Part shown: positions 16,111-54,509 of the stretch, in pieces
Position numbering within the stretch: position 1 is the stretch's first letter
Layout: each line of letters starts with the position of its first letter
Assembly: GCF_029948125.1 (NCBI RefSeq)
Contig: NZ_JASAMB010000013.1
Location: forward strand, 124,001 to 188,000
Source of the DNA: Catellatospora sp. KI3
GTDB lineage: Bacteria > Actinomycetota > Actinomycetes > Mycobacteriales > Micromonosporaceae
Length of the DNA stretch: 64,000 nt
Direction: 5' to 3'
Made by a program: the position numbers and the translations under genes
Notes under the pieces: generated by a model
Told to the model about the DNA's origin: nothing
The model's input: the letters and a program-made list of their open reading frames with translations, nothing else
The model's database searches: none

Positions 16111-19100
16111 ATGAGCCGCCGCAAACCTGTCCTCGGCGCGTTGCTGGCGCTGGTCACCGCAGTGGCCGTGAGCGTGGTGCCCACCAGCACCGCCTCGGCC
16201 GCACCGGCCTTCCGGGCACTGGTGTTCAGCGAGACCGCCGGCTACCGGCACGGATCCATCGCCGCGGGCATCACGATGTTCAACCAGCTCGCCGCGGCCA
16301 ACAACTTCGAGGTGGTGTTCAGCGAGGACTCCACCGTGCTGAACACGGCCAACCTCAACACCTTCGACGTGCTGGTCATGTTCCAGACCTCCGGCATGGT
16401 CTTCGACAACGACGCGCAGCGCACGGCCACGCAGAACTTCCTGCGCAGCGGCAAGGGCATCGTCGCCATCCACAACGCCACCGACATGGGCATCGAGTCG
16501 GCGTTCCCGTGGTGGGACGCCACCATCAACGGCGGGGCGCACATGCCCGAGCACTCACCCGGCTCGCTGCAGGGCTGGGCCAGGGTCGCCGACAAGGCCC
16601 ACCCGTCCACCGCCGGCCTGCCGGACAACTGGCAGCGCACCGAGGAGTGGTACAACTTCGACGTCAACGCCCGCGGCCAGGTGCACGTGCTGGTGACCGC
16701 CGACGAGCGCACCTACAACCCGGGCGGCGCGGCGATGGGCCCCGACCACCCGATCTCCTGGTGCCGGCAGGCCGAGGGCGGCAAGGTCTGGGCGACCGCG
16801 ATGGGCCACGACGACGCCTCCTACAGCGAGACCAACTTCCGCAACCACATCCTGGGCGGCGTGCGGTACGCGGCCGGCAACCTGCCCGGCGACTGCGGCG
16901 GCACGGTGTGGAGCAACTTCGAGAAGGTCACCCTGGACTCCAACACCGTCGACCCGATGGCGCTGGACATCGCCGCCGACGGCCGGGTCTTCTACGTGCA
17001 GCGCGGCGGCAAGGTCAACGTGTTCAAGCCCGCCCAGCAGCAGACGGTGCAGGCGGCCCAGCTGTCGGTGTACACCGGCGGCGAGGACGGCCTGGTCGGC
17101 ATGGCGCTCGACCCGAACTTCGCCACCAACAAGTGGATCTACCTGTACTACTCGCCGCTGGCCAGCACCACCGACGTCAACCGGCTGTCCCGGTTCACCG
17201 TCAACGGGGACACCCTGGACCTGGCCAGCGAGAAGGTCCTGCTGAGCGTGCCCGCGTACCGCGACCGCACGTTCAGCGAGCCCGGCCACACCGGCGGCTA
17301 TGTCGCGTTCGGGCCCAACGGCAACCTGTTCCTGTCCACCGGCGACGACTCGCCGCCCAACCTCGATCCGGCCTGGCAGGGCTACGCGCCGCTGGACTGG
17401 CGGGCCGGCAAGAGCTTCCTGGACGCGGCCCGCAGCGCCGGCAACACCAACGACCTGCGCGGCAAGCTGCTGCGGATCCACCCGGAGAGCGGCGGCACCT
17501 ACACCATCCCCAGCGGCAACCTGTTCGCGCCGGGCACCGCCCAGACCAAGCCCGAGATCTACGCGATGGGCTTCCGCAACCCGTTCCGGTTCGAGGTCGA
17601 CATGCAGACCGGCTGGGTGAACCTGGCCGACTACGGACCGGACCGCGGCGGCCCGACCACCAACCGGGGCCCGGAGGGCCTGGTCGAGCTGAACGTGATC
17701 AAGCAGGCGGGCAACTTCGGCTGGCCGTTCTGCCACGGCAACAACCAGGCCTACGCGCCGTACAACCCCGACACCGGCGTGGTGGGGGCGAAGTTCAACT
17801 GCAACGCCCCGGTCAACGACTCGCCGAACAACACCGGCCTGCGCACCCTGCCGCCGCTGGTCCAGCCGCAGATCTGGTACGGCTACGGCGTCTCGCCGAC
17901 GTTCCCGGAACTGGGCGAGGGCGGCGCGGCGCCGATGGGCGGCCCGGTCTACCGGTACAACGCGGCCAGCACCTCGGCGACGAAGTTCCCGGCGTACTAC
18001 AACGGAGTGCACTTCTTCTACGAGTGGTCGCGCAACTACCTCAAGGAGATCCACTTCGACGCCTCGGGCAACCTGGTGAAGATCAACCCGTTCCTGCCGG
18101 GCGGCGGCTTCATCAAGCCGATGGCCATGCGCTTCGGTCCCGACGGCTCGCTGTACGTGCTGGAATGGGGATCGGAGTTCGGCGGCGGCAACAACGACTC
18201 CGGGCTGTACCGCATCGACTACGTGCACGGCGGACGGGCCCCGGTCGCCAAGGCCACCGGCACCCCGACCAACGGGCTCACCCCGCTGAACGTGGCGTTC
18301 TCCAGCGCCGGCTCCTACGACCCGGACGCCGGGGACACCATCTCGTTCGCGTGGGACTTCGACGGCAACGGCAGCACCGACTCCACCGCCGCGAACCCGA
18401 CCCGCACGTACACCACCAACGGCAACTACACCGCGAAGCTGACCGTCACCGACAACACCGGCCGCTCCTCGTTCGTCAACGTGCCGATCACGGTGGGCAA
18501 CAACGCCCCGGTCGTCACCATCACCTCCCCGCCCAACGGCGGCATGCTCGACTTCGGGCAGAACGTCGCCTACACCGTCAGCGTCACCGACGCGCAGGAC
18601 GGCACCATCAACTGCACGCAGGTGTTCACCAACCCGGCGCTCGGCCATGACGACCACGCCCACCCCACCACCGACCTGCCCGGCTGCGCCGGCACCATCG
18701 ACACCGGCAACCTCGGCGGCCACCCGGACGGGGCCAACCTGTTCTACCTGCTCAACTCCCGCTACCAGGACAACGGCAACGGGTCGGTGGCGCGGCTGAC
18801 CGGCTACGCCAACGTGGTGCTCCAGCCCAAGCACAAGCAGGCGGAGTACTTCACCGGCCAGTCCGGCATCCGGGTCGTCGCCCAGGGCGGTGCGGAGAGC
18901 GGCAACCGCATCGGCGACGTCAGCAACAACGACTGGATCATGTTCGATCCGATGAGCGTGCAGGGGATCACCAGCGTCAGCTACCGGGTCTCCTCGCCGA
19001 CCGGCGGCGGCAGCATCGAGCTGCGTGCCGACTCCCCGACCGGCACCCTGCTGGCGACCAACCCGATCGCGGCGACCGGCGGCTGGGACACCTACGTCCA

Positions 19101-39864: not shown

Positions 39865-41216
39865 CGCCGCTCCTGAGGCAGTTCGATACGGAACCGGGCG
39901 CCGCCGCCGGGGCGCTCGCCCACGCTGACCCGGCCGCCGTGCGCGGTGACGTGCTGGGCGACCAGCGCCAGGCCCAGACCGGTGCCGTCGCTGCCGCCCC
40001 GGGCGCCCGCCGACGCGCCCCGCACGAACCGGCCGAAGATCACATCCCGGTCGGCCGGGCACACCCCGGGCCCGGCGTCGTCGACCTCCAGCACCCGCGT
40101 GCCGCGCTGGTGCCCGATGCGCAGCGCGACCGCGCCGCCGCCGTGGGCGTGGGCGTTGTCGAGCAGGTTCGCCAGCACCTGGGTGAACCTGCGGCGGTCC
40201 ACCCGCCACTGCGGGTCGGCCCCGGCCTCGACCGTGACCAGGTCCGCGGCCAGCCCCCGCGCCCGGCAGACCTGCCGGGCCAGCGCCGCGACGTCGACCG
40301 GGGCCACCTCCGGCGGCTGGTCGCCCCGGGCCAGTTCCAGCAGGTCGGTGACGAGCGCCTGGAACCGGCCCACCTCGTCGGTGAGCAGCCCGACCGCCGT
40401 GGCCGTGCGCTCGTCCAGACTGGTGCGGCGGTTGTGCAGCACGCTCGCGGCCGCGGCGATGGTCTGCAGTGGAGAGCGCAGCTCGTGGCTCACGTCGGCG
40501 GCGAAGCGCCGGTCGCGCTCCACCCGACGGGCCAGCTGCTCGACCATCTGGTTGAACGACGCGGTCAACCGGGCCAGCTCGGGTTCGGTGTCGGGGTCGA
40601 GGCGGGCGCTGAAGTCACCGGCGGCGATCTCGCGGGCGGCGTCGGCCACGGTCGCCAGCGGCCGCAGCACTCGCCGCGCGGCGTACCAGCCCAGCAGGGC
40701 GCCCGCGCCGGTGGTGGCGGTGGCCAGCAGGGCGAGGATCAGGGCCAGGATCTTCAGTGAGCGGTCCAGCTCCTGCATGAAGTCGATCTCGTACAGCGTG
40801 ATCGTCGCCCCGGCCGGCACCCCGACCACCAGCGCGGTACGCCCGCTGATCCGGGTCCGCTGCACCCCGCCCCGCCCGTGCTCGGCCAGCGCCACCAGGC
40901 TGGCCGGGATGCTGGTGGTCAGGCCCGCGTCGACGGTACGCGAGTAGAAGTGCCCGTCGCGGCGGATCAGCACCCGCCGGTTGCCCCCGGTGTCCAGCGA
41001 CCGCAGCACCTGCAGCACCCCCGGGTCGTCCCCGTCCACGGCCGCCTGCACGATCCCGACGTCGACCATGGCGGTGCGCACCGCCGCGTCCTCCCGCTCG
41101 GCCAGCAGGAAACGCTGCGTGAGCTGGTACGACCCGACCGCGATCGCCGCCGACACCAGCAGCGCGCCGACGGCGAACCCGCCGGTGACCTTCGCCCGCA
41201 GCCCGGGGCGCCTCAT
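39861..41216 (-). CDS. HAMP sensor histidine kinase
   Basis: A 451-residue membrane kinase. Two membrane helices (residues ~10-32 and ~170-195) flank a ~140-residue extracytoplasmic sensor. HAMP follows (RRVLRPLATVADAAREIAAGDF), then the His box FAADVSHELRSPLQT and the ATPase boxes N (NLLDNAHAHGG), G1 (VDDAGPGV) and G2 (GTGLGLALV). It overlaps the response regulator gene upstream and the lipoprotein gene downstream by 4 bp each, so all three are co-translated. An envelope-stress role is inferred from the lipoprotein partner. Confidence 0.92.
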   Translation of the reverse strand: MRRPGLRAKVTGGFAVGALLVSAAIAVGSYQLTQRFLLAEREDAAVRTAMVDVGIVQAAVDGDDPGVLQVLRSLDTGGNRRVLIRRDGHFYSRTVDAGLTTSIPASLVALAEHGRGGVQRTRISGRTALVVGVPAGATITLYEIDFMQELDRSLKILALILALLATATTGAGALLGWYAARRVLRPLATVADAAREIAAGDFSARLDPDTEPELARLTASFNQMVEQLARRVERDRRFAADVSHELRSPLQTIAAAASVLHNRRTSLDERTATAVGLLTDEVGRFQALVTDLLELARGDQPPEVAPVDVAALARQVCRARGLAADLVTVEAGADPQWRVDRRRFTQVLANLLDNAHAHGGGAVALRIGHQRGTRVLEVDDAGPGVCPADRDVIFGRFVRGASAGARGGSDGTGLGLALVAQHVTAHGGRVSVGERPGGGARFRIELPQERR

Positions 41217-41893
41217 CGGACGAGTTTGTAGCCCAGGCCCCGGACCGTGACGATGAGCCGGGGCACGCCCGGATCGTCCTCGATCTTCTGGCGCAGCCGG
41301 GCGATGTGGACGTCCACCAGGCGCTCGTCGCCGAAGTCGTACTCCCACACCCGCTCCAGCAGCTGCTGGCGGCTGAGCACGTGCCCGGCGTTGGCGGCCA
41401 GCTCGCACAGCAGCCGCAGTTCGGTCCGGGTCAGCGCGATCGCCCGCCCGCGCCGGGACACCTCACCGGCGGCGGGGCGCAGCTGCAGGTCGCCGAAGAC
41501 CAGCGCCTGCTCGATCCGGGGCGCGGGCAGCCCGGCGCGGCGGCGCAGCGCCCGCAGCCGGGCCGACAGCTCGGGGGTGGCGACCGGTTTGACCAGGTAG
41601 TCGTCGGCGCCGGCCTCCAGCGCAGCGACGATGTCGCCGGTGTCCTGCCGGGCGCTGACCACCACGATCGGCACGTCGTCGTCGCGGCGCAGCCTGCGGA
41701 TGCACTCGATGCCGTCCAGGCCGGGCAGCATCAGGTCGACCAGCACGGTGTCGGCGGGTTCGCGCCGCTGCCGGGCCAGGCCGTCCTCGGCGGTGGCGGT
41801 GGCCCGGACCGCGTACCCCTCGTCCTCCAGCGCCATCGCCAGCGCGAGCCGGATCCGGTCGTCATCCTCGATCACCAGCACAGCCGCCACCAC
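41213..41893 (-). CDS. OmpR-family response regulator
   Basis: A 226-residue regulator. The receiver domain shows the acidic pair VIEDDDR, the phosphorylation Asp in VLVDLMLPGLDG and Lys in DYLVKP. The C-terminal winged helix is typical (LTRTELRLLCELAANAGHVLSRQQLLERVW, VDVHIARLRQKIE). The start is uncertain because no ribosome site is visible: tandem GTGs at 41893/41890 are chosen, while an ATG at 41956 would add 21 residues. It is the first gene of the regulator-kinase-lipoprotein operon. Confidence 0.88.
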   Translation of the reverse strand: MVAAVLVIEDDDRIRLALAMALEDEGYAVRATATAEDGLARQRREPADTVLVDLMLPGLDGIECIRRLRRDDDVPIVVVSARQDTGDIVAALEAGADDYLVKPVATPELSARLRALRRRAGLPAPRIEQALVFGDLQLRPAAGEVSRRGRAIALTRTELRLLCELAANAGHVLSRQQLLERVWEYDFGDERLVDVHIARLRQKIEDDPGVPRLIVTVRGLGYKLVR

Positions 41894-42233
41894 CGCATCA
41901 TGACCCGGTGGTGTCGGCCCGGACTGACGCCGGGCCGAGTTGCCGGTAATTGTCATGAAATAGTCATAGGACCTGATTCGGTTGCGAAGATCACTGTTAA
42001 TGACATTGACACATCTGCTCATATGATCGAGACTGCATGGCGGGAGCGTTCCCACATCGGGGTGGAACGACGTCTCTTTGCGACCGCAGTACTGCTGCGG
42101 ACTCCACTTCCCAGGTCGGCTGCCTCGACGCCGTGCGCAGAGAACCGAGCACCGCGCGGCGGTTGCCCTCGCCTGCCTCGCCGCCCACGTACGCCGCCTG
42201 GCCTCGCCATGTCCGGTCGCCGAAGGTGGGAAC
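41894..42233. promoter_or_regulatory. Divergent promoter region between two-component operon and NRPS cluster
   Basis: These 340 bases hold no gene I can support. Bases ~41940-42030 are AT-rich for this genome. GTCAT is directly repeated at 41952-41956 and 41963-41967 (11-bp period), a spacing used by OmpR-family regulators. A TTGACA hexamer lies at 42006-42011 and TATGAT at 42022-42027, but they are too close together to form one promoter. The right half is GC-rich untranslated leader for the cluster's first gene. Confidence 0.4.
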
Positions 42234-44018
42234 GTGAGACGAACGACGAAACTCGACCAGTGGAGCCAGGAGCTGGGCGACGTGCGCGACGCCGCCGCGC
42301 TGTTCGGCGGCAGCGCCCAGGCCGCGGTGCTGCGCCTGCTCACGATGGGCGGCAAGATTCCGTTCCGCTCCGCGTTCGACGGCCTCACCCTGCGGGAACA
42401 GGCGATCGTCCGGCACCTGCTCGGCCGCCCGCAGCTGCGGCTGACCGCGCCGGGCGCCGACGCGCCGCCCGCCCAGTTCGTGCTGTGCCACTCGGCACTG
42501 GGCAAGCTGTCCGTCCACGAACCCGGTGAGGCGCCCGCCGACGAGGTGGTCGCCGAACTCGCGCTGCCGCAGTGGATCATCGAGATGATCGACGAGGAGT
42601 ACCTCCCGGCACAGGCCGAAGAGGACCACCAGCGGCACGAGCTCGACCACATGCTGCACACCTGGCACGCCGAGGGCACCCTGCCCGAGCGGCTGGAAGA
42701 GGTCGTCGACTGGGTCGAACGGGTCGAGACCGTCCTGGTCTACATCCAGCGGCGGGTCTTCTCCCGCTCCGACTCCGGTTCCAGCACCCTCATCCGCGAC
42801 GGCGTGCTGCCCGCGCTGCGCGGGCGGCCGCCGGCCGACTGGAGCCCGGAGGAGCGGCTGTTCGTCGCCGCGATCCAGCTGCTGTTCCGGACGGGACGGG
42901 CGGTCCGGTTCGAGGAGTTCAACGGACGCCAGCTCAGCGCCGTCGGCCTGCGCCGGACCCTGACCACCCGCTGCGCCGCGTACCTGAACGCCCTCGGCGA
43001 GCAGGCCGACGGCCGGCTGAGCACCGCGACCCTGGCCGAGCTGGCGGCGCTCGCGGGCGACCTCGTCGAACTCGTCGACGGCGGCGGCCAGATGCGCTAC
43101 CGGCGCGTCAACGGCCTGACCTACGCCAAGGACGAGTACCTGATGCCCTGGGACCAGGGCCAGCGCACCCAGGCGGAGCTGCCCGAGACGCTGCTCTCGC
43201 TGGCCGGGGGCCTGGACGGCCCGGCCGCCGACACCGACGCGGCCACCTGGGTGCGGCAGGCCACCGCCGCCGCGCTGCGGACCGCCCACGCCGTCGGCGA
43301 CGACGGCGAACTGGCGCGGATCCTGGAAGGCATCGTGCTCGGCGCGGTCATCGACGGCCGGGCCGACTACGGCATGTCCAGCGGGGTGCGGGACCTGTCC
43401 CGCCTGGACGGAGCCGCCGGAGAGTACGGCCAGGAGGTGGCCGAGCTGAAGAAGCCCGACTTCTTCTGCTGCGTGCTGCCCAGCCCCGACATGGCCGCCG
43501 ACCTGCCCGCCCCGGCCGTCACCGACATCCTCTGGCAGGTCGCCCAGCGCATGATGTACAACCGCTGGCACTTCGTGCCCGGCAACTTCGACCGGGCGCA
43601 GGTACCCCGCCAGCGGCACTACTTCTTCCCGCCGCTGGTGCCCGACATCGGCGAATGGGGCGACCTGCGCCACGGCGGCCACACCACCGCCCGGGTCCGC
43701 TACACGCTGCGGGCGCCCGGCGCCGCGATGTGGCGCCAGCCCTTCACCGTCGGGGGACGCCAGTACCGCGGCGCGTTCGACATCCGGCTGGTGCGGATGG
43801 AAGGCCCGCCGTTCACCCTCGCCGACCTGCGGGTCGCCTGCCGCTACTCGGCGCTGGTGGACGTGTTCTGGCGCGAGATCGCCGCCTACGCCGACGCCCA
43901 CGGCGGCTGGACCCCGACGATCACGGCCTTCAGCGGCGACTGGTACGCCAAGGAGTCCTGGCGCGAACCCGTCGACCGGCTGGCCGCCGCGGAGCGGGCG
44001 ATCGGCGCGCCGGCGTGA
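42234..44018 (+). CDS. Unrecognised 594-residue protein, first gene of the NRPS cluster
   Basis: A 594-residue soluble protein with no signal peptide or membrane segment. I do not recognise its family. Visible features are a mixed alpha-helical N-terminal two thirds and a C-terminal part rich in aromatic residues and His (NRWHFVPGNFD, RQRHYFFPPLVPDIGEW, LRHGGHTTARVRY, DFFCCVLPSPDM), which could hold a metal or cofactor site. The start is GTG 42234 with AGGTGGG upstream. Its stop overlaps the NRPS start (GTGA), so the two proteins are made together and probably act in one pathway, perhaps supplying or modifying the NRPS substrate. Confidence 0.75.
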   Translation: MRRTTKLDQWSQELGDVRDAAALFGGSAQAAVLRLLTMGGKIPFRSAFDGLTLREQAIVRHLLGRPQLRLTAPGADAPPAQFVLCHSALGKLSVHEPGEAPADEVVAELALPQWIIEMIDEEYLPAQAEEDHQRHELDHMLHTWHAEGTLPERLEEVVDWVERVETVLVYIQRRVFSRSDSGSSTLIRDGVLPALRGRPPADWSPEERLFVAAIQLLFRTGRAVRFEEFNGRQLSAVGLRRTLTTRCAAYLNALGEQADGRLSTATLAELAALAGDLVELVDGGGQMRYRRVNGLTYAKDEYLMPWDQGQRTQAELPETLLSLAGGLDGPAADTDAATWVRQATAAALRTAHAVGDDGELARILEGIVLGAVIDGRADYGMSSGVRDLSRLDGAAGEYGQEVAELKKPDFFCCVLPSPDMAADLPAPAVTDILWQVAQRMMYNRWHFVPGNFDRAQVPRQRHYFFPPLVPDIGEWGDLRHGGHTTARVRYTLRAPGAAMWRQPFTVGGRQYRGAFDIRLVRMEGPPFTLADLRVACRYSALVDVFWREIAAYADAHGGWTPTITAFSGDWYAKESWREPVDRLAAAERAIGAPA

Positions 44019-47000
44019 ACCAGAGCCAGCGGCACGTGGTCGTCAACGGCCAGGACCAGTACTCCCTGTGGCCGACGGACCGGCCGGTGCCGGGCGGATG
44101 GACACCTGTCTTCACCGGCGAGACCGAGGTGTGCCTGGAGCACATCACCCGGCTGTGGACCGACCTGCGGCCGGCCGCGCTGCGCCCAGCCGGCGTCGGC
44201 ACGGTCGCCGGTGCGCGGCCCCAGCCGGCCGACGCCGCGGTCGACTCCGTGCTGTCGATCGCCGCCGGGCCGCGCCGCCCGGTCGACCAGACGCCGCTGC
44301 ACGTGCTGATCGACCGGGCGCTGGCGGCCGATCCCGGCCGGATCGCGGTGCGCTGCGCCGGAGTCGAGGTCACCGCCGGTGAGCTGCTGGCGCGGGTACG
44401 CCGTACCGCGCGGGTGCTGCGGACGCACGGCGCCGGCCCCGAGACACCGGTCGCGGTGCTGCTGCCCCGCTCGGTCGAGGCCGTCGTGGCGATCCTCGCG
44501 GTGCTGGCGTCCGGGTCGGCGTACCTGCCGCTGTCCGTGCACGACCCCGCCGACCGGCGGGCCCGGATCCTGGCCGACGCCGGCGACCCGGTCCTGCTCA
44601 CCGGCCCGGCGCACGCCGCGCTGGTGCCGGCCGGCTACCCGGCGGCGGTGCTGGACGTCACCGACCTGCCCGACCCGTCCGGTGACGGCGGTGACGGCGG
44701 CTGCCAGGTCGAGAACCTGGCGTTCATCATGTACACCTCCGGCACCAGCGGCGCGCCCAAGGGCGTGCTCGGCACCCACCGGCAGCTGGTCAACTACGTG
44801 GCCTGGTGCGCCGAGGAGTTCGCGTTCCAGCCGGGCGAGCGCGCCGTGCTGCACGCCCCGCTGTACTTCGTCGGCTCGGTGATGACGCTGTTCACCGCAC
44901 TCGTCGCGGACTGGGAACTGGAGGTCGCCCCGGAGCCGGTCGCGTTCGACGACCTGATCGCCCTGACCGCCTCGGCCCCGTGCGGCTTCCTGAAGCTGAC
45001 CCCCTCGCACGTACGGGCGATGACCGCCCTGGGCGGCGTCGACGACGTGGCCCGGCAAGTGATGATCGGCAGCGAGCCGCTCTACCTCACCCCCGAGTTC
45101 GACAAGTGGATCACCGGCAGCCCGATGTCCGGGTTCGGCAACCACTACGGCATGAGCGAGACCGTCGGCGCGACGTGGTACTGGATCGGCGCCGACCGCA
45201 GCGTCGGGCGGCGGCTGCCCGTCGGCGCGCCGATCCCCAACGCCGAGGTGCACATCGTCGACGAGCAGGGCCTGCCCGTGGCGCTGGGCGAGGCGGGCGA
45301 GATCTGCCTGGGCGGGGCCGTCATCGGCCGCGGCTACCACGGCCAGCCCGCGCTGACGGCCCAGCGGTGGATCCCGCACCCGGCCGGCGACGGCACCCGG
45401 CTGCTGCGCACCGGCGACCTCGGCCGGATGCGACCCGACGGGGTGCTGGACGTCCTGGGCCGGGCCGACCGGCAGGTGAAGATCCGCGGCCAGCGCGTCG
45501 AACCGCCCGCCGTCGAGGACGCGCTGCGCCGCTGTCCGGGCGTCGCCGAAGCGGTCGTGATCGCCGAGCCCGACGGCCACGACCTGCAACTGGTCGCCTA
45601 CCTGCGCTCGGAGGAGCAGCCGCCACCCGCGGCGGCCACCCTGCGCGCCCACGCGGCCGGGCTGCTGCCCGAGGCGTCGGTGCCGAGCCGCTTCCTGTAC
45701 GTGGCGCGGTATCCGCTCACCCCGAACGGCAAGGTCGACACCCGGCGGCTGCCGGACACCCCGACGGTGCGCCCCGCGCTGAGCACCGTGTACACGGCCC
45801 CGGCGGGTGACCTGGAGACGGCGGTCGCGGCGGTGGTCGCCCGGGTGCTGCGCGTGGACCGGCTGGGCGCCGACGACGACTTCTTCGAACTGGGTGGGGA
45901 CTCGATGCGGGTCGTCGAGGTCGTCACCCGGCTCGACGAGGAGCTCGGCCTGTCGGTCGGCATCGCCGACCTGTTCGACCGCCGTACCGTCCGGTCGCTG
46001 GCCGCCGCGCTGGACGCCGACCCGGCGCCCGCCCCGGCGGTCGGCACCGTGAACCGGGCGGAGCAGCCCACCGACTCCGCGGCCGTGACACCGGTGGTCT
46101 CCGGCGCGGCGATCCAGGCCCGGTTCAGCGGCACGTCGGCCGCCTCCGCCCCGCTGACCTGGGGCCAGACGGCCATGTTCCGGCCCATGCAGTGGTTCGG
46201 CGAGGCCAGCGCGAACTTCAACATCAAACGGGTGCTGCGGCTGTCGGCCCCGGTCCCGGCCGAACGGGTCGCCACCGCCTGGTCCCAGCTGATCCTGCGG
46301 CACCAGGTGCTCCGCAGCCTGATGACCGACGGCCCCGACGGCCCCCACCAGCACCTGCGGCCCGAAGGCGCGTACGAGCCGCAGATCGTCGACACCACCG
46401 CCGCCGAACTCGACGCGACCGCCGAGGCCACCGCCGCTGAACTGGCCGCCGCGGCGTTCCACCTGGACCGGCAGTGGCCGGTGCGGTTCGCGCTGCTGCG
46501 CGTCGACGGCCAGGTCGAAGCCGTCGCCGTGGCCGCCTCCCACGTGTCGCTGGACGGCTGGTCGCTGGAGCTGCTGCTGGCCGAGCTGCGCGTCCTCGTC
46601 GAAGGCGAACGGGCCCTGCCCGCGCCGGGCTGGCAGCCACTGGACCAGGCCGCCTACGAGGCGTCACCGGCCGGGCAGCGCCGCGCCCGGCAGTCCCTGG
46701 ACCACTGGCGGCAACGGCTGCCCCTGGTACCGCATCGGATCTTCGACGGCCCGGACCACGACGGCGGCGAGCTGCCCGTGGTCACCTGGCGGATGGAGTC
46801 GGCGGCCGTGGCCGCTGCCGCATCCGAACTGGCCGTGCGCACCGGAGCGTCGACGTCCACGGTGGTGCTGACCGCGGTGCTGCTGACCCAGGCGGCGCTG
46901 ACCGGCAGGGACCGGGCCGTGGTCAAACTCATCGCGGGCAACCGCAACACCCCCCGGCAGCGGGAACTGGCCACGGGCATCGCCCAGAACGCGCTGCTGG

Positions 47001-47458
47001 TCTTCGACGTCGGCGACGGCGACCTGGAGGACGCCGTCCGCCGCTGCTACCGCGACTCCACCGAGTCCTACTTCCACGCCACCTACCCGCCGCAGGCCCT
47101 GGACGACCTGATCGCGGCCGAGGGCCCGCAGGCCGACCAGTCGGTGTACTTCAACGACTCCCGGATGGGCCGCGACTTCGACCCGGTGCCCGGCCCTCGC
47201 GACCGGGCGGCACTGGCGGAGCTGGCGCGGCACACCACGGTGCGGCAGGTCGCCGCCGTCGCCCGCCACGACATGACGTTCTTCGTGGCGATGCCCCACC
47301 TGGCCGGCGGCTGCGCCCTGCACCTGCTGGCCGACACCCGGCGGGTCCCCGCCGAGACGTGCCTGCGGGCGCTGCGGGGCATCGAGACCCTGCTGTGCGA
47401 GGCAGTGTCGCGTCCCGTACCGGTCAAAGACGTCGCCGCCCTGCTCGCCCTCGACTGA
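44015..47458 (+). CDS. Single-module NRPS: MbtH - adenylation - thiolation - condensation
   Basis: A 1147-residue nonribosomal peptide synthetase. Residues 1-65 form a fused MbtH-like domain (QYSLWPTDRPVPGGW, WTDLRPAALRP). The adenylation domain (~95-580) has YTSGTSGAPKG at 240, NHYGMSET, RTGDLGRMRPDG and NGKVD. The carrier domain (~600-670) has GGDS with phosphopantetheine Ser630. The condensation domain (~710-1145) has SHVSLDG, keeping catalytic His843. At the substrate pocket LYFVGSVM replaces the usual F-D-x-S-x-W, so the amino-binding Asp is Val286: the substrate may not be an ordinary alpha-amino acid. There is no thioesterase, so the condensation domain probably passes the product to a separate amine or alcohol. 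Confidence 0.93.
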   Translation: MNQSQRHVVVNGQDQYSLWPTDRPVPGGWTPVFTGETEVCLEHITRLWTDLRPAALRPAGVGTVAGARPQPADAAVDSVLSIAAGPRRPVDQTPLHVLIDRALAADPGRIAVRCAGVEVTAGELLARVRRTARVLRTHGAGPETPVAVLLPRSVEAVVAILAVLASGSAYLPLSVHDPADRRARILADAGDPVLLTGPAHAALVPAGYPAAVLDVTDLPDPSGDGGDGGCQVENLAFIMYTSGTSGAPKGVLGTHRQLVNYVAWCAEEFAFQPGERAVLHAPLYFVGSVMTLFTALVADWELEVAPEPVAFDDLIALTASAPCGFLKLTPSHVRAMTALGGVDDVARQVMIGSEPLYLTPEFDKWITGSPMSGFGNHYGMSETVGATWYWIGADRSVGRRLPVGAPIPNAEVHIVDEQGLPVALGEAGEICLGGAVIGRGYHGQPALTAQRWIPHPAGDGTRLLRTGDLGRMRPDGVLDVLGRADRQVKIRGQRVEPPAVEDALRRCPGVAEAVVIAEPDGHDLQLVAYLRSEEQPPPAAATLRAHAAGLLPEASVPSRFLYVARYPLTPNGKVDTRRLPDTPTVRPALSTVYTAPAGDLETAVAAVVARVLRVDRLGADDDFFELGGDSMRVVEVVTRLDEELGLSVGIADLFDRRTVRSLAAALDADPAPAPAVGTVNRAEQPTDSAAVTPVVSGAAIQARFSGTSAASAPLTWGQTAMFRPMQWFGEASANFNIKRVLRLSAPVPAERVATAWSQLILRHQVLRSLMTDGPDGPHQHLRPEGAYEPQIVDTTAAELDATAEATAAELAAAAFHLDRQWPVRFALLRVDGQVEAVAVAASHVSLDGWSLELLLAELRVLVEGERALPAPGWQPLDQAAYEASPAGQRRARQSLDHWRQRLPLVPHRIFDGPDHDGGELPVVTWRMESAAVAAAASELAVRTGASTSTVVLTAVLLTQAALTGRDRAVVKLIAGNRNTPRQRELATGIAQNALLVFDVGDGDLEDAVRRCYRDSTESYFHATYPPQALDDLIAAEGPQADQSVYFNDSRMGRDFDPVPGPRDRAALAELARHTTVRQVAAVARHDMTFFVAMPHLAGGCALHLLADTRRVPAETCLRALRGIETLLCEAVSRPVPVKDVAALLALD

Positions 47459-47488
47459 ACCCGCCCACCCCGACCGCCTGGAGCCAAC

Positions 47489-48463
47489 ATGACCGACCCG
47501 TACCCGCTGCTGCATCGCCTGGCCGCCGACGGCGACGCCGCCCTGGGCGGCACCCCGCTGCCACCCGACGGCCGCTACCAGGTCGTCACCACCACCGTCG
47601 ACGAGGTCACGGCCCAGATCGTGCGCACCCTGCGCGACGGGTTCGCCGGGCGCGCCCCGGGCGACTACCCGCTGCTGGTGCTCGGCTGGGGACGGTGCCG
47701 GGTCGGGTCGACGGCGGTCACGAACCTGTTCGGCATGGCCGGAGCCAGCGCCTACTACCAGCCGGTCAAGACCATCGGCCGGTTCGCGCTGACCGGCGGC
47801 GAGGGGTCGCCGTGGAAGCTGCCCGACGGCGAACCGGTGCTGTTCGCCAAGGAGATGGCCGGGCCGTACGTGCCGTTCGAGGCGCTGTTCAACCCGGCCC
47901 GCTGCCTCATCGAAGCCGGCTGGCCGGTCGACCGGCTGCGACTGCTGGTGCTCGACCGGCAGCCGCGGGCCAGCCTCGACTCGTGGATGGCCAAGTGGGC
48001 GGGCAAGATCGGCCGGACCCGGGTGGTGGAGAACTTCGTGCTCAGCACCCTGAACTACGCGCGGATGCGCACCTACGCCGAGGCGGAGGGCCTGGCGGTG
48101 ACGCACTTCCCGTACGAGTGCAGCCGCGCCCCCGAGCAGACGGTGTCGCGGCTGTTCGACCGCCTCGGCATCGGCCACCTGTACCGGCCGCAGATGCTCA
48201 CCGGCTGGGGCGCGGCCGGTGACCTCAACTCCGACCAGTCGAAGATCCACCACCCGGTCGAGCCGGAGCCCTACATCGTCCCCGGCCTGCACGGCAACGC
48301 CGACGAGTACCGCTTCCGGGACCGGCCGGTGACGGTGCTGACCGACGCGGAACTCGCCGCCGCCGACAGCCCCGAGGTCACCGAGTCCTACGAGGTGTCG
48401 ATGCGTCGCTGCGCCCGGGAGCTGGAGCTGCCCGCGCCCCTGCGGGACGAGATCTTCGGCTGA
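47489..48463 (+). CDS. Sulfotransferase-like P-loop protein
   Basis: A 324-residue protein with the P-loop LGWGRCRVGSTAVTNLFG (residues ~65-83), resembling the 5'-phosphosulfate-binding loop of PAPS-dependent sulfotransferases, and LLVLDRQPRASLDSWMAKW matching the 3'-phosphate-binding strand-helix with Arg/Ser. The rest is poorly conserved. It should move a sulfuryl group from PAPS onto an NRPS product, or act as a relative with altered donor use. GGAG lies upstream of ATG 47489, 30 bases after the NRPS stop. Confidence 0.72.
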   Translation: MTDPYPLLHRLAADGDAALGGTPLPPDGRYQVVTTTVDEVTAQIVRTLRDGFAGRAPGDYPLLVLGWGRCRVGSTAVTNLFGMAGASAYYQPVKTIGRFALTGGEGSPWKLPDGEPVLFAKEMAGPYVPFEALFNPARCLIEAGWPVDRLRLLVLDRQPRASLDSWMAKWAGKIGRTRVVENFVLSTLNYARMRTYAEAEGLAVTHFPYECSRAPEQTVSRLFDRLGIGHLYRPQMLTGWGAAGDLNSDQSKIHHPVEPEPYIVPGLHGNADEYRFRDRPVTVLTDAELAAADSPEVTESYEVSMRRCARELELPAPLRDEIFG

Positions 48464-48468
48464 CCGCG

Positions 48469-50355
48469 GTGACCACTTCCACCACCAGCGCCGGGCAGCT
48501 GCGCGAGGCCGCCGCCGCCCGGCTGCGCATCGCCCGGCAGCTGCCCGCCGCCGGGGCGGCCGGGACCGCCGTGGCGCTGGCGCTCAGCGTGTTCCGCGGC
48601 GTGCTGCCGGTCGTGTTCGCCGTCGCCGTCAGCACGACCGTCGGCCGGATCGGCCCGGTGCTGCGCGGCACCGCCGGGCAGGCCGAACTGTGGTGGCCGC
48701 TGGCCGCCGCCGGCGGCGCGCTGATCGCGCTGCAACTGGCCGAGGCGGCGCAGAAGGCCATCGGCGAGCAGCTCAGCCGCCGCGTCGACGGGCACATGTA
48801 CCGGCGGCTCATCCACGCGTCGCTGTCGACCCGCGAGATCACGCCGCTGGAGGACCCGGCGGTGCTCGACGAGCTGGGCGAGGCCGGGCACGAGCTGCGG
48901 TTCGCGTTCCGCACCCCGGGCGCGGCCTACGCCGGGCTGATCGCGCTGGTCGGGCCGTACACGCAGGTCGCCGGGTTCACGGTGGTGGTCGCGCTGGTGC
49001 TGGGGCCGTGGGCGGCGCTGGCGATGCTGGCGGTGGTGCTGCTGTTCCGCCACGGTCAGCGCGGCGGCCTGCGCCGCTACGCCCGCGTCATCCGCGGCGT
49101 CGCCGCCATCCGCCGGGAGAGCCGCTACCTGCGCGGGCTGGCGATGGGCCCGGCCGCGGCCAAGGAGCTGCGGGTCTTCGGCCTCACCGGCTGGCTCACC
49201 GAACGCTACCGGCAGGTCTACCAGCGGGCACTGGCCCCCGTATGGTCTGAACGCCGCCGCATCTACCTGCGGCCCTACCTGGCGTACACGGCTGCCGGGC
49301 TCGTCGGCGTCGCCGCCGTCCTGGCGCTGGCCGCGACGCGCGCCGCCGCCGGAGCGCTGGACCTGGCCGCCCTCGCACTGGTGCTGCAGGCGGTGATGGC
49401 GCTGATCCGGCTGGGCGAGTTCTACCCAGACTCCGACACCCAGACGCAGTACGGCATGAACGCCGAGACCGCCATCACCGCGTTCGAGACGGCCATGGCC
49501 GGCTACACCGAACCCGCCGACTCCGGCCGGGTCGCCCCGGCCGCCACCGCCGCCCCGGCCATCGACTTCGCCGGGGTGCGCTTCGCCTACCCCGGCGCCG
49601 CCGATCCGGTGTTCGACGGGCTTGATCTGCACATTCCCGCCGGGCAGTGCACCGCCCTGGTCGGCGTCAACGGCGCGGGCAAGACCACCCTGGTCAAGCT
49701 CCTGGCCCGGCTCTACTCGCCCGGCGCCGGGACGGTGCGGGCCGACGGCGTCGACGTGGCCGACCTGCCTGCCCGCGACTGGCAGCGCCGCATCGCCGTG
49801 GTGTTCCAGGACTTCGTCCGCTACGAACTGTCCGCGGCGGCCAACATCGGGTTCGGCGCCGTCGAGCACCTCGACGACCGGGCCGGCATCCGCCGCGCGG
49901 CGCAGGCGGCGGGGCTGCTGGACAGCCTCGACCGGCTGCCCGCCGGTCTGGACACGCTCCTGTCGCGCGGCTACGACGGCGGGGTCGACCTGTCCGGCGG
50001 CCAGTGGCAGCGCATCGCCATCGCCCGGGCCCTGTTCGCCCTGTACCACGGCAGCACCGTGCTCGTGCTGGACGAGCCGACCGCCGCCCTGGACGTACGC
50101 GCCGAAGCCGAGTTCTTCGCCCGGTTCGCCGAGCTGACCCGCGGCCGTACCACCGTCCTGATCTCGCACCGGCTGTCCAGCGTGCGCCTGGCCGACCGGA
50201 TCGTCCTGCTCGAACACGGGCAGGTCGTCGAGCAGGGCAGCCACGACGAACTCATGGCCGCTAACGGCCGGTACGCCGCGATGTTCACGCTGCAGGCCGA
50301 ACGCTTCGCCGCCGCCGACGCCGGCGGCGATCCGGTGGCGGGGAAGGTGGGATGA
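48469..50355 (+). CDS. ABC exporter half-transporter 1
   Basis: A 628-residue fused membrane/ATPase protein. About six helices lie in residues ~25-330. The ATPase has Walker A GVNGAGKTTL (399), Q-loop VFQDFVRY, signature LSGGQWQRIAIARAL, Walker B LVLDEPTAALD and ISHRLSSVR. The complete motifs indicate full ATPase activity. It begins 5 bases after the sulfotransferase-like gene and is followed after 3 bases by a second half-transporter, so the two probably form a heterodimer that exports the cluster's product. Confidence 0.92.
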   Translation: MTTSTTSAGQLREAAAARLRIARQLPAAGAAGTAVALALSVFRGVLPVVFAVAVSTTVGRIGPVLRGTAGQAELWWPLAAAGGALIALQLAEAAQKAIGEQLSRRVDGHMYRRLIHASLSTREITPLEDPAVLDELGEAGHELRFAFRTPGAAYAGLIALVGPYTQVAGFTVVVALVLGPWAALAMLAVVLLFRHGQRGGLRRYARVIRGVAAIRRESRYLRGLAMGPAAAKELRVFGLTGWLTERYRQVYQRALAPVWSERRRIYLRPYLAYTAAGLVGVAAVLALAATRAAAGALDLAALALVLQAVMALIRLGEFYPDSDTQTQYGMNAETAITAFETAMAGYTEPADSGRVAPAATAAPAIDFAGVRFAYPGAADPVFDGLDLHIPAGQCTALVGVNGAGKTTLVKLLARLYSPGAGTVRADGVDVADLPARDWQRRIAVVFQDFVRYELSAAANIGFGAVEHLDDRAGIRRAAQAAGLLDSLDRLPAGLDTLLSRGYDGGVDLSGGQWQRIAIARALFALYHGSTVLVLDEPTAALDVRAEAEFFARFAELTRGRTTVLISHRLSSVRLADRIVLLEHGQVVEQGSHDELMAANGRYAAMFTLQAERFAAADAGGDPVAGKVG

Positions 50356-50358
50356 GCG

Positions 50359-52137
50359 ATGCTCGAAGCGATCACTGGGCTGCTGCGGCTGTCCTGGCGG
50401 CAGGACCGCCGCAAGATGTCCGTGGCACTCGCGCTGATGGGCGCCAACGCCGTCGCAGTGCCGCTGGGGGCGCTGGCGCTCAAACACCTCACCGACGCGG
50501 CGGCGGCCGCCGACACCACCGCGGCCGCCTGGTCCGCCCTCGCCGTCGCGGTCGCCGCGATCGGGGCGCTGACCTGCGCGCACTTCGCGCACATCGCCTA
50601 CTTCGAAGTGTCCGAACTCAACGTCCTGAGCACCGACGAGCAGCTCATCGAGATCAGCAACGGCACACCGTACCTCGACCACCACGAGCGGCCCGACCAC
50701 GCCGACCGGATGGCCCTGGCCCAGGACGAACTGCAGCGCATCGGTGAGGGACTGCAGGCGCTGCTGACGGGCGGGTCGCTGGCCGTCAGCCTGCTGCTGA
50801 CGACCGTGCTGCTCACCATGGCCCACCCGGCGCTGGTGGTGCTGCCGCTGCTGGCCGCGCTGCCGCTGCTGGCCGGACGCCGGGCCCAGGCCGCGGTCGA
50901 CCGGGCCCGCGAGGACAGCACCGTGGACACCCGGCAGGGCCGGCACCTGTTCGAGCTGACCACCGACGCGGCGTCGGCGAAGGAACTGCGCCTGCTCGGC
51001 CTGGTCGACCACCTGCAACGGCGCTACGCCGGACACTGGCGGGCCGCCACCGACCGGATCTGGCGCGGCGAGCTGACCGCCGGGCTGTGGCGCGCGGCCG
51101 GACAGGCCGTGTTCGCCCTCGGCTACGTCGCGGCCCTGGTCCTGGTCGTGCGCGAGGCGGTACGCGGCGACGCGGGCGTCGGCGACGTCGTCCTCTCGAT
51201 CATCCTGGCCTCGCAGCTCAACCAGCAGGTCGCCGCCGCCGTGACGATCACGCAGCAGCTCGCGCGCAGCGGCCGCTCACTGCGCCGCCTCGACGAACTG
51301 AGGGCCCTAGTGCCGCAGCCGCCCGCCGGACCGGCCGCGCCGCTCACCCCGCCGTCGCGACTGCTGGAGGGCATCCGCCTGCGGCACGTCACGTTCACCT
51401 ACCCCGGCGCGGACGGGCCCGTGCTGCGCGACGTGGACCTGCTGCTGCCCGCCGGGAGCACGGTGGCGGTCGTGGGCGAGAACGGTGCGGGCAAGACGAC
51501 CCTGGTCAAGCTCCTCAACCGGTTCTACGAACCCGACCGCGGCGCGATCCTCGTCGACGGAGTCGACCTGCGCGACTTCGACCTGGCCGCGTGGCGGGCC
51601 CGGACCACGGCCGCGTTCCAGGACTACGCCCGCCCGGAGCTGACGGCCCGGCTGGCCGTCGGCGTCGGCGACCTGCCCCGCGCGCACGACGACGACGCGG
51701 TGCGCGCCGGTCTGGCCAGGGCGCATGCCACCGTCGTCGACCGGCTGCCGTACGGACTGGACACCCGGCTGGGCCGCAGCCACGCCGACGGGGGCGTCGA
51801 CGCCTCCGGCGGGCAGTGGCAGCAGCTCGCGCTCGGCCGGGCGATGATGCGCGACGCCCCGCTGCTGATGGTGCTCGACGAACCGGCGTCGGCGCTGGAC
51901 GCCGAGGCTGAGCACCGGCTGTTCCAGCGGTACGCCGACGGCGCGGCGCGGGTCGCCGCCGACAGCGGCGGCGTCACGGTGTTCGTGTCGCACCGGTTCT
52001 CCACCGTCCGCGACGCCGACCTGATCATCGTCATCGGCGACGGAGGAGTCCGCGAGATGGGCACCCACGACGAGCTGATCCGGTCGGACGGCGTCTACGC
52101 CGCCCTGTACGGCACGCAGGCGGCGGCCTACCGCTGA
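50359..52137 (+). CDS. ABC exporter half-transporter 2
   Basis: A 592-residue partner of the preceding gene. Six helices precede an ATPase with Walker A GENGAGKTTL (373), Q-loop AFQDYARP, signature ASGGQWQQLALGRAM, Walker B LMVLDEPASALD and VSHRFSTVRDAD. The Ser in its signature is shifted (ASGGQ for LSGGQ), a mild deviation. It is the last gene of the cluster, followed by a 20-bp-stem terminator. Confidence 0.92.
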   Translation: MLEAITGLLRLSWRQDRRKMSVALALMGANAVAVPLGALALKHLTDAAAAADTTAAAWSALAVAVAAIGALTCAHFAHIAYFEVSELNVLSTDEQLIEISNGTPYLDHHERPDHADRMALAQDELQRIGEGLQALLTGGSLAVSLLLTTVLLTMAHPALVVLPLLAALPLLAGRRAQAAVDRAREDSTVDTRQGRHLFELTTDAASAKELRLLGLVDHLQRRYAGHWRAATDRIWRGELTAGLWRAAGQAVFALGYVAALVLVVREAVRGDAGVGDVVLSIILASQLNQQVAAAVTITQQLARSGRSLRRLDELRALVPQPPAGPAAPLTPPSRLLEGIRLRHVTFTYPGADGPVLRDVDLLLPAGSTVAVVGENGAGKTTLVKLLNRFYEPDRGAILVDGVDLRDFDLAAWRARTTAAFQDYARPELTARLAVGVGDLPRAHDDDAVRAGLARAHATVVDRLPYGLDTRLGRSHADGGVDASGGQWQQLALGRAMMRDAPLLMVLDEPASALDAEAEHRLFQRYADGAARVAADSGGVTVFVSHRFSTVRDADLIIVIGDGGVREMGTHDELIRSDGVYAALYGTQAAAYR

Positions 52138-52156: not shown

Positions 52157-52205
52157 CCGCCCCTGGTCGGACCCGGCCGGAAAGACCGGGTCCGACCAGG
52201 GGCGG
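52157..52205. terminator. Very strong hairpin at the end of the NRPS/exporter operon
   Basis: A perfect 20-bp stem (52157-52176 with 52186-52205) encloses a 9-base loop. It lies 20 bases after the exporter stop and 4 bases before the stop of the convergent isoamylase gene, so it should work in both directions. Confidence 0.85.
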
Positions 52206-52208
52206 AGT

Positions 52209-54509
52209 TCACTTCGCGAGCAGCAGCAGGACCGCCCGGCCGTGCAGGACGTACGCCGTCCCGCCGCCGCCGAGCAGGGCCTCGGTGCCGGGCGTGGCCA
52301 CCTGGCCCGAGCCCTCGGCCCAGGTGGAGGTGTCGGTCACCCGGTACCAGCTCTTGCCCGCCGGGGGAGCGGGCAGCGTGAACGTCACGTCCCCCGACCA
52401 GCCGTTGTACGCCGTGTAGAGCGCGGCTGCGGAGTCGCCGAACTCGGTGCCGTCCAGGCGCCAGGCCAGCGCGTGGTTGTTCGCGTTGCCCCAGTACGCC
52501 CCGTCCGGCGCCGTCCCGGCCGGGGTGAACCACTCCAGCTGCCCCAGCCCGTTGCCGTTGCCGTCGGCAGCGGTGTAGAAGTTCGCCGGGCGCAGCGCCG
52601 GGTGCGCCTTGCGGAAGGCGACCATCCGAGCAGTGAACGTCTGGAAGTTCGACTCGTCGGTGGTCAGCGACCAGTCCAGCCAGTTGGCGCTGGAGTCGAG
52701 GTTGTACGGGTTGTTGTTGCAGTTCACCGACCGCAGCGTCTCGTCGCCGCCGGTGAACATCGGCACCCCGCCCGACAGCAGCACCAGCGCCATCCCGTTG
52801 CGGGCGGCCTTGCGCTGGTCGGCGGCGATCCCGCCCTGGTCCCAGGAGATGTTGTCGTCGCTGCCGCCGTCCGACGGTCCGTACGGCCAGGCCTGACCGT
52901 TGTTCTTGGCGTTGCACGAGTACAGGTCCTTGAGGGTGAACCCGTCGTGGACCACCATGAAGTCGATCGAGTGGAAGGGCCTGCGGCCGTCGTCGCCGTA
53001 CAGGTCGGACGAGCCGGCGAACCGGGTGGCCAGGTCGCTCGGGGTGACCGCGTCCACGCCCATCTTGTTCTGGTCGCGCCGGACCGTGTCGCGGTAGATG
53101 CCGTTCCACTCGGCCCAGGCGGCCGGGAAGTTGCCGACCTGGTACGTCCCGGCGCCCAGCGCCCACGGCTCGGCGATCCAGTCCACGCCGGAGCCGCCGC
53201 CCGCCGGGCGCCCGGGCATCTCGGTGGTGAGCCGGTTGAGCGCGGTGTTCGGATCCGTCCTGCTGTAGCTGAAGCAGCCGTGCTGGCAGGTGTTGCCCAG
53301 CACCGGGGCCAGGTCGAACCGGAACCCGTCCACCCCGAGCGTGTTCTTCCAGTACGCGACGGAGTCGACGATGAGGTTCTGCGCGACGGTGTTGCGGGTG
53401 TTGTAGTTGTGCAGCAACCCGGTGTTGTCCATGGACCCCTGCATGTCGCTGGTCAGCGAGTAGTAGGTCGGGTTGTCCAGGCCGCGCCAGGAGAAGATGT
53501 TGTACGTGTTCTTGTCGCCGAGCGTGCCGCCCTCGGCGGTGTGGTTGTAGACGACGTCGATGTACACCTTGATCCCGGCGTCGTGGTAGGCCTTGACCAT
53601 GGCCTTGAACTCGCGCGTCGGCCCGCCCGCGGTCTTGTCGGAGGAGTAGCGGCGGTCCGGGGCGAAGTAGTTCTCGGTCATGTAGCCCCAGTAGTTGTCG
53701 CCGCTGGTGCTGGTCGGGTTGGTGTCGTTGGCGTCGTTCTGGGTCTCCTGCACCGGCAGGAACTCCACCGCGGTCACCCCGAGCGAGGCCAGCGCGGCGG
53801 CCTTGAGCCCGGCACCCTTGTACGTGCCCCGGTAGGCGGCCGCGATCGAGGTGTCGGACTTGGTCAGGCCGCGCGGGTGCACCTCGTACACCACCTCGTC
53901 CTTGAAGGCGCGGGTCGGCTTGGTGCCGGTGCTGGTGGCGTCGGCGGCCAGCACGAGTCCCTTGGGCGCGATGGTGCCCGTGTCGACGGCGCGTCTGGCC
54001 GGGCCGGAGGAGTAGTCGGAGGCGACGCCGTCGGTGAAGGCGGTGTCGTGGCTGACCTCGCGGGCGTACGGGTCGAGCAGCAGCTTGTTGGGGTTGAAGC
54101 GGTTGCCGGCGGCGTCGACGTCGGCGACGAACCCGGTCGACGACCCCTTGGTCCAGCTCGCGCTGTAGGGCCAGTTCGGACCCCAGGCGCGGTAGCCGTA
54201 GTAGACGGTGCCGGTGACCCCGGCCGCCTGGAGGGTGGCCGTGCCGACCGTGGCGGCCCAGACGTCGCCGGTGCCCTTGGTCAGCACATAGCTGGCCTTC
54301 TCCTGCGCGCCGGTGGCGGCGGCGTAGACGTACACGGCGATGCGGGTGGCGCGGGAGGAGTAGACGCGGAAGGTGACGTTGGACGCGGTGGCGTCGTAGC
54401 GGCCGCCCAGGGCCTGGGTGTCGATGCCTGCTCGGGCGGCGGGGGAGACGAGGGTGAGACCGGCGGTGACCAGTGCGGCCGCCAGCGTCACTCTCCAGAA
54501 GCTGCGCAT
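52209..54509 (-). CDS. Secreted isoamylase-type glycogen/starch debranching enzyme (GH13)
   Basis: A 766-residue exported protein, close in length to Pseudomonas isoamylase. A signal peptide ends near SPAARAG. An N-terminal CBM48-like domain (~35-180) precedes the GH13 barrel with region I DVVYNHTAEG, region II GFRFDLAP (nucleophile D399), region III DWIAEPW (acid/base Glu) and region IV VVHDGF. It should cleave alpha-1,6 branches of starch or glycogen outside the cell. The ribosome site GGAAGGA precedes ATG 54509. A MalR-like operator lies 41-56 bases upstream of the start. Confidence 0.9.
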   Translation of the reverse strand: MRSFWRVTLAAALVTAGLTLVSPAARAGIDTQALGGRYDATASNVTFRVYSSRATRIAVYVYAAATGAQEKASYVLTKGTGDVWAATVGTATLQAAGVTGTVYYGYRAWGPNWPYSASWTKGSSTGFVADVDAAGNRFNPNKLLLDPYAREVSHDTAFTDGVASDYSSGPARRAVDTGTIAPKGLVLAADATSTGTKPTRAFKDEVVYEVHPRGLTKSDTSIAAAYRGTYKGAGLKAAALASLGVTAVEFLPVQETQNDANDTNPTSTSGDNYWGYMTENYFAPDRRYSSDKTAGGPTREFKAMVKAYHDAGIKVYIDVVYNHTAEGGTLGDKNTYNIFSWRGLDNPTYYSLTSDMQGSMDNTGLLHNYNTRNTVAQNLIVDSVAYWKNTLGVDGFRFDLAPVLGNTCQHGCFSYSRTDPNTALNRLTTEMPGRPAGGGSGVDWIAEPWALGAGTYQVGNFPAAWAEWNGIYRDTVRRDQNKMGVDAVTPSDLATRFAGSSDLYGDDGRRPFHSIDFMVVHDGFTLKDLYSCNAKNNGQAWPYGPSDGGSDDNISWDQGGIAADQRKAARNGMALVLLSGGVPMFTGGDETLRSVNCNNNPYNLDSSANWLDWSLTTDESNFQTFTARMVAFRKAHPALRPANFYTAADGNGNGLGQLEWFTPAGTAPDGAYWGNANNHALAWRLDGTEFGDSAAALYTAYNGWSGDVTFTLPAPPAGKSWYRVTDTSTWAEGSGQVATPGTEALLGGGGTAYVLHGRAVLLLLAK

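Follow-up and report, generated by a model that had tools for sequence, protein, structure and literature searches.

We analyzed a 64,000-nt stretch of DNA from Catellatospora sp. KI3 (contig NZ_JASAMB010000013.1, part of an 8.2-Mb genome), hereafter the window, which carries a compact cluster of five genes (P0001–P0005, table 1; coordinates are window positions unless a locus or contig is named). The first gene encodes a protein that almost certainly belongs to the KinJ/NegJ family of heme hydrazine synthases, and it is followed by genes for a nonribosomal peptide synthetase (NRPS), a sulfotransferase-like protein, and two ABC half-transporters. Judging from sequence comparison, the cluster probably makes and exports a small peptide-like compound that contains a nitrogen–nitrogen (N–N) bond, with P0001 as its predicted hydrazine source. 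A first-pass annotation of this DNA had already suggested a small exported product, which agrees with the presence of one NRPS module and an exporter, but the N–N bond, likely the key feature of the product, had not been proposed.

P0001 Is Homologous to Heme Hydrazine Synthases

P0001 had previously been described as a protein of unknown family. Neither P0001 nor P0003 matched any Pfam (E-value up to 1) or NCBIfam (E-value up to 0.1) family, and a PDB sequence search with a P0001 profile returned three matches, all with an E-value of 1 or worse. Scanning genome contigs with P0001 revealed 13 loci, five of which contain the whole five-gene set; the eight loci without it encode proteins that are 39–47% identical to P0001. 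The homologue in Kitasatospora purpeofusca NRRL B-1817 (L021) shares 44% identity with P0001 over 585 columns. This organism is the source strain of NegJ (PMC12154649), and its homologue was used here as a stand-in for the NegJ record itself. Identity to a kin-type homologue (L063) is 32% over 400 columns. P0001 is thus homologous to the KinJ/FzmP/NegJ heme hydrazine synthases rather than an orphan.

This enzyme family was described in a May 2025 preprint that refers to the report on NegJ as well and in whose accessible text aspartate and glycine are the substrates named (PMC12154649). KinJ binds heme b and, together with the ferredoxin KinI, converts nitrite and L-aspartate to L-hydrazinosuccinate with low turnover; FzmP also uses aspartate, and NegJ is cited as the enzyme that converts glycine to hydrazinoacetate (PMC12154649).

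Nine residues implicated in KinJ function (K356, C468, R497, M498, N501, H504, H541, R551, and R570) correspond to K299, C412, R439, M440, N443, H446, H483, R493, and R518 of P0001. All of them, including the heme ligand H541, were invariant in 29/29 aligned sequences, and in 44/44 after 15 Streptomyces sequences were added. Phylogenetic analysis of the 44 sequences placed the 11 window-type proteins in one group (support 100/100) on the NegJ side, which was split from the KinJ side with support of 100/100, in a tree flagged for long branches that meet. P0001 itself pairs with the protein of Catellatospora methionotrophica (L010, support 95/99), whose gene has an ATG at the position of the GTG start of P0001. 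In addition, three alignment columns distinguish the 7 negamycin-type sequences from at least 90% of the 24 KinJ-side sequences, and at 3/3 of them the proteins of the window clade carry the NegJ-side residue.

Structure prediction and a Foldseek search had been recommended in the first-pass annotation. The AlphaFold2 model of P0001 (predicted local distance difference test score, pLDDT, 80.8) gave weak matches, mostly to phytochrome and other GAF domains (best E-value 0.028), with the heme-binding proteins DosS and DosT at ranks 29 and 34. Matches to the GAF fold have likewise been reported for KinJ (PMC12154649).

The Five Genes Behave as One Unit

Within the window clade, defined as P0001 homologues with at least 67% identity, all five genes are present in the same order and on the same strand in 11/11 genomes (window, L009–L013, L046, L048, L049, L050, and L052), the last gene of L009 being truncated by the contig end. 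Spacings in the window are −4, +30, +5, and +3 bp, which confirms the co-directional arrangement with 4-bp overlaps or gaps of 3–30 bp noted in the first reading, there being one such overlap; its length is 4 bp in 10 clusters and 10 bp in L049. Flanking genes are shared by five of the 11 clusters (L011, L012, L013, L048, and L050). The other six have no common flanking order, and a gene of family F41 lies near the window and L010 clusters at different distances. Since the five genes have been kept together in all 11 genomes found for the clade with mostly different flanks, they behave as one unit, which supports the earlier proposal.

Among 300 genomes of the same bacterial family, P0003 was detected in 11, and 10 of these also carry P0001 in this cluster. 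Nine of 160 genomes of one genus have P0003; the only new one (G987) is the genome of L009 according to its coordinates. In a sample of 231 genomes of the class, P0003 was found only in G000, the window's genome, and G013. Overall, homologues with at least 58% identity to P0003 occur in 12 genomes, 11 with an adjoining P0001 orthologue and one (G176) without; a single remote homologue from 290 Streptomyces genomes is counted separately from these 12.

The P0001 family is distributed more widely. It was found in 18/300 genomes of the bacterial family: 10 with this cluster, 3 with a negamycin-type locus, and 5 in other gene neighborhoods. A second copy is present in two of these genomes (G088 and G276). 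The expectation that homologues of P0001 would always lie beside such an NRPS therefore holds in the window clade, but was rejected for the protein family as a whole, since it applies to only 10 of these 18 positive genomes.

Table 1. Positions of the cluster, its domains, and related features
Feature	Position	Strand	Basis or remark
P0001, 594 aa, KinJ/FzmP/NegJ-family protein, predicted heme hydrazine synthase	42234..44018	+	Homology; GTG start
P0002, 1147 aa, MbtH-A-T-C NRPS	44015..47458	+	Pfam domains over cut-offs
MbtH-like domain of P0002	44033..44149	+	PF03621
Adenylation (A) domain of P0002	44312..45733	+	Code VGMKMGHGAK, identical in 12/12 clusters
Carrier (T) domain of P0002	45821..46012	+	LGGDS in 12/12
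Condensation (C) domain of P0002	46190..47116	+	SHxxxDG; first His of HHxxxDG is Ser in 12/12
P0003, 324 aa, sulfotransferase-like protein	47489..48463	+	Motifs, weak fold match
P0003, genome position	C5:171489-172460		
P0004, ABC half-transporter	48469..50355	+	ABC_tran (Pfam)
P0005, ABC half-transporter	50359..52137	+	ABC_tran (Pfam)
Perfect 20-bp hairpin	52157..52205	.	Arms 52157-52176 and 52186-52205, 9-nt loop
Isoamylase-like open reading frame	52209-54509	-	Convergent with the cluster
OmpR-type response regulator	41213-41905	-	Divergent from the cluster; with HAMP-containing partner
L075 cluster with N-hydroxylase-cupin, MetRS-like, DAO set replacing P0001	L075:5114-17786 (G176:C2)		Aminotransferase next at 17922-18995
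Second hydrazine-synthetase-like set: DAO-type oxidase, MetRS-like, stand-alone cupin, lysine N-hydroxylase	L117:7540-11906 (G000:C23)		Window's genome, another contig
NegJ stand-in, K. purpeofusca NRRL B-1817	L021:9959-11803		
Remote P0003 homologue, Streptomyces G825	L116:9178-10035		

P0001 Is Replaced by a Hydrazine-Synthetase-like Set in G176

The exception, locus L075 of G176, keeps the sulfotransferase-like protein (58% identity), the NRPS (45%), and both ABC proteins (50–51%). No relative of P0001 was detected at this locus by tblastn, and none was found in G176 in the 300-genome sample. P0001 is replaced by a different set of genes located before and between the kept ones, which encode a DAO-type FAD oxidase, a protein similar to methionyl-tRNA synthetase (MetRS), and a fusion of a lysine/ornithine N-hydroxylase with a cupin. 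The scores of the MetRS-like protein fall far short of the cut-offs for genuine MetRS, and another MetRS-type match is present elsewhere in G176.

This set resembles the cupin/MetRS hydrazine synthetases. Of these, Spb38, Spb39, and Spb40 convert lysine and glycine to hydrazinoacetate, and the cupin of Spb40 is fused to the MetRS-like part (PMC10445470), whereas that of L075 is fused to the hydroxylase. In a 2010 analysis, every MetRS paralogue was reported to have a cupin and a lysine N-monooxygenase as neighbors (PMC2922099). The substrates given for relatives of the cupin/MetRS enzymes are glycine, alanine, serine, glutamate, and tyrosine; aspartate is missing from the accessible part of that report (PMC11705231). 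The idea that the two N–N systems are interchangeable had already been raised from other clusters (PMC12154649).

L075 looks like a natural swap of one N–N source for another. Most simply, one and the same NRPS would receive a single kind of hydrazino acid from two unrelated systems; together with the identical A-domain code of the 12 clusters, the swap ties the pathway to a hydrazino acid. Considering that glycine is a substrate reported for both kinds of system, this acid is most likely hydrazinoacetate.

The A Domain of P0002 Suggests an Acid without a Free Alpha-Ammonium Group

All domains of P0002 (MbtH, AMP-binding, AMP-binding_C, PP-binding, and Condensation) score over the curated Pfam cut-offs, and the MbtH-A-T-C architecture and the two ABC half-transporters were correctly recognized in the first reading. 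The A-domain code was extracted by alignment with LgrA and motif anchors, positions 299 and 301 lying beside a one-residue gap, and its positions are given in what we take to be PheA numbering. Position 235 is occupied by Val instead of Asp. In A domains that load keto acids, an aliphatic residue typically replaces Asp235 while the remaining code matches that of an amino acid (PMC10949194). Four of the 10 positions in the P0002 code (K278, G301, H322, and K517) are the same as in the Asp code DLTKVGHVGK (PMC10391617). By analogy, Val235 and this agreement suggest that the loaded acid probably lacks a free alpha-ammonium group and may carry an acidic group. Candidates are an acid that is to be joined to the hydrazino acid, a hydrazino acid bearing a cap, and hydrazinosuccinate.

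A thioesterase domain was not found in P0002 by Pfam search. Given this and the SHxxxDG motif in the C domain of all 12 clusters, the product is likely released by condensation with a free nucleophile.

P0003 Is a Sulfotransferase-like Protein

In P0003, a conserved GRCRVGSTA loop and a stretch of the form DRxPRxSxDSW resemble motifs that bind 3'-phosphoadenosine 5'-phosphosulfate. No Pfam family was matched at an E-value up to 10, and the best chance match of 7 scanned homologues had an E-value of 0.095. The remote relative in L116 matches PF00685 (Sulfotransfer_1) with 15.3 bits, below the cut-off of 22. Sulfotransfer_1 was detected at six places in the genome of strain KI3, none of which is P0003. 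A PDB sequence search with a P0003 profile returned two matches, with E-values of 0.042 (8fjf_A, molecule H10) and 1. With a poor model (pLDDT 51), Foldseek placed the curacin sulfotransferase domain (4gbm) at rank 5 (probability 0.91, E-value 0.15, 21% identity over 122 aligned columns), the highest probability among the 50 matches listed; P0003 is a stand-alone protein, in contrast to that domain. The previous assignment is thus weakly supported: P0003 is sulfotransferase-like, not a proven member of the family.

The remote homologue in L116 belongs to an unrelated cluster that includes AMP-binding and carrier genes as well as genes that, by eye, are DAHP-synthase-like and aminotransferase-like. 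An N–N gene was not recognized in this cluster.

Other Contexts and Known Systems

The P0001 family was also detected in 20/295 Streptomyces genomes. Four of these were not added to the analysis (G481 and G492 had already been fetched, and G712 and G943 were weak matches), and the five-gene cluster occurs in 0/16 of the Streptomyces stretches taken.

Seven loci are of the negamycin type (L014, L015, L016, L017, L019, L021, and L054), comprising six of the eight loci with 39–47% identity and L054 from a later search. They have in common lysine-aminomutase-like, methyltransferase, preATP-grasp, and SET-domain genes, the aminomutase-like, preATP-grasp, and SET domains having been checked on L014 only and SET also on L021. 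The NegJ stand-in is on the same side of the tree as P0001, and no ferredoxin gene was recognized near it either. In contrast to these loci, the part of the window that was compared lacks the lysine-aminomutase-like, preATP-grasp, and SET-domain genes and has the NRPS, P0003, and ABC exporters instead. One of the seven, L016 from Dictyobacter arantiisoli (Chloroflexota), places the negamycin-type set in another phylum; there, the gene order begins with the synthase homologue. A NegJ-like homologue in Streptomyces sp. CBMA291 (L020) lies beside a condensation-like protein, an MFS-type protein, and others, unlike both main types.

Nine distant loci (27–34% identity) mostly contain amidase, lyase-like, and GNAT genes, along with a glutamine synthetase (GS)-like gene near the homologue in 8/9 and a ferredoxin in 7/9. 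This combination is similar to the kinamycin and lomaiviticin hydrazino cassette. The GS-like gene is present in 13 of 15 further Streptomyces loci, and a ferredoxin likewise in 13. KinJ, FzmP, and Lom29 (kinamycin, fosfazinomycin, and lomaiviticin) share the family and the nine active-site residues with P0001, but their hydrazino cassette is missing from the window cluster, and no ferredoxin gene was recognized in it. Three KinJ-side homologues (L107 of G855 and L109 of G879, both from Streptomyces, and L061 of G150) are accompanied by a ferredoxin and repeated genes of family F21, which are ATP-grasp-like by eye; a GS-like gene was not found in these three stretches.

The cupin/MetRS systems (Spb38–40, azaserine, and triacsin) are unrelated to P0001. 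Such a set is found in L075 with the same NRPS, P0003, and exporters, whereas a lysine N-hydroxylase, cupin, MetRS-like protein, and FAD oxidase are not among the five genes of the window.

Genes Flanking the Cluster

The divergent two-component operon, noted in the first reading as flanking the cluster, was considered as a possible part of the system. Its response-regulator family (F14) was found in none of the stretches retrieved for the other 10 clusters, and this candidate was rejected on that ground. Downstream of P0005, the proposed terminator with a 20-bp stem is indeed a perfect inverted repeat, but it lacks a T-run. The end of the hairpin is 3 bp from a convergent isoamylase-like gene, so that the hairpin sits between this gene and the cluster.

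Proposed Pathway and Alternatives

In the pathway that we favor, P0001 would act as a heme protein of the NegJ/KinJ type that forms the N–N bond and gives a hydrazino acid, both this activity and glycine as its substrate being predicted. The MbtH-A-T-C module of P0002 would activate an acid, which the terminal C domain would hand to a free nucleophile. In one version, the activated acid lacks a free alpha-ammonium group, and joining it to the hydrazino acid, its putative coupling partner, would give a hydrazide; alternatively, the NRPS might load the hydrazino acid itself, perhaps capped, and couple it to an amine or alcohol. A sulfo group is probably added by P0003, although the transfer and its timing are conjectural, and P0004 and P0005 would export the product.

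Several observations weigh against this pathway. The swap was seen in one genome only (G176). The KinJ numbering was transferred through L063 at one constant offset rather than through KinJ itself, and Foldseek gave no match to P0001 with an E-value of 0.001 or less. A ferredoxin gene was not recognized in the window cluster, and a KinI-like query found no match in the genome, though an empty answer shows little. In favor of the pathway, two ferredoxins of the FdxA family, which we take to be the 7Fe type, score over the cut-off elsewhere in the genome. With NegJ, a 7Fe ferredoxin that is not part of the cluster was used (PMC12154649). A further point against the pathway is a second hydrazine-synthetase-like set, encoded on another contig of the window's genome, which might supply the hydrazino acid without P0001; P0001 is therefore not the only possible hydrazine source of this genome.

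Other readings of the same genes should be considered. It is possible, albeit rather doubtful, that the order of events is similar to that of azaserine: P0003 would N-sulfonate hydrazinoacetate, the A domain would load the capped acid, and the C domain would pass it to an amine or alcohol. The sulfo cap would then stand where azaserine and triacsin have a succinyl group, K278 and H322 would meet the sulfonate, and Val235 would replace the Asp that holds the alpha-ammonium group. Such an order fits the presence of P0003 beside an N–N-forming or N–N-like system in 12/12 genomes, a code with K278 and H322 but without Asp235, and the loading of succinyl-hydrazinoacetate (succinyl-HAA) on a carrier shown for azaserine (PMC10445470). 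However, the sulfotransferase activity of P0003 is putative, the five genes include no hydrolase for removal of the cap, and the code is read by analogy only.

P0001 might instead act on L-aspartate, as KinJ and FzmP do (PMC12154649), so that an Asp-like A domain loads hydrazinosuccinate. The four positions shared with the Asp code (PMC10391617) would suit this reading, which is nevertheless unlikely: P0001 is on the NegJ side of the tree with the NegJ-side residue in all three diagnostic columns, and the cupin/MetRS enzymes that the L075 set resembles were reported without aspartate as a substrate in the accessible text (PMC11705231). Least probable of all is that P0001 keeps the fold and carries out some other heme reaction, the product having no N–N bond. 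The absence of a ferredoxin gene among the five would agree with this, but nine of nine implicated residues are kept in P0001, and an independent N–N-type set lies beside the same NRPS in L075.

With the hydrazino-acid pathway preferred, a broader and tentative view, to which we give some chance, is that the NRPS, P0003, and the exporters constitute a plug-in unit for hydrazino acids. This unit would be fed by the heme/nitrite enzyme or by the N-hydroxylase-cupin/MetRS-like set depending on the lineage, and P0003 would sulfonate the hydrazine or the acyl partner, giving an undescribed class of sulfo-hydrazides.

No paper on the five-gene cluster was found in the literature searched, most subscription journals being outside its reach. 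We conclude that the cluster represents a conserved, minimal type of N–N natural-product cluster around a known but very young enzyme family, and that the G176 locus is a concrete candidate for a swap of N–N systems inside an otherwise conserved cluster. If this swap is true, the hydrazino acid supplied by the two systems should be identical, and the product should be restored by either of them.

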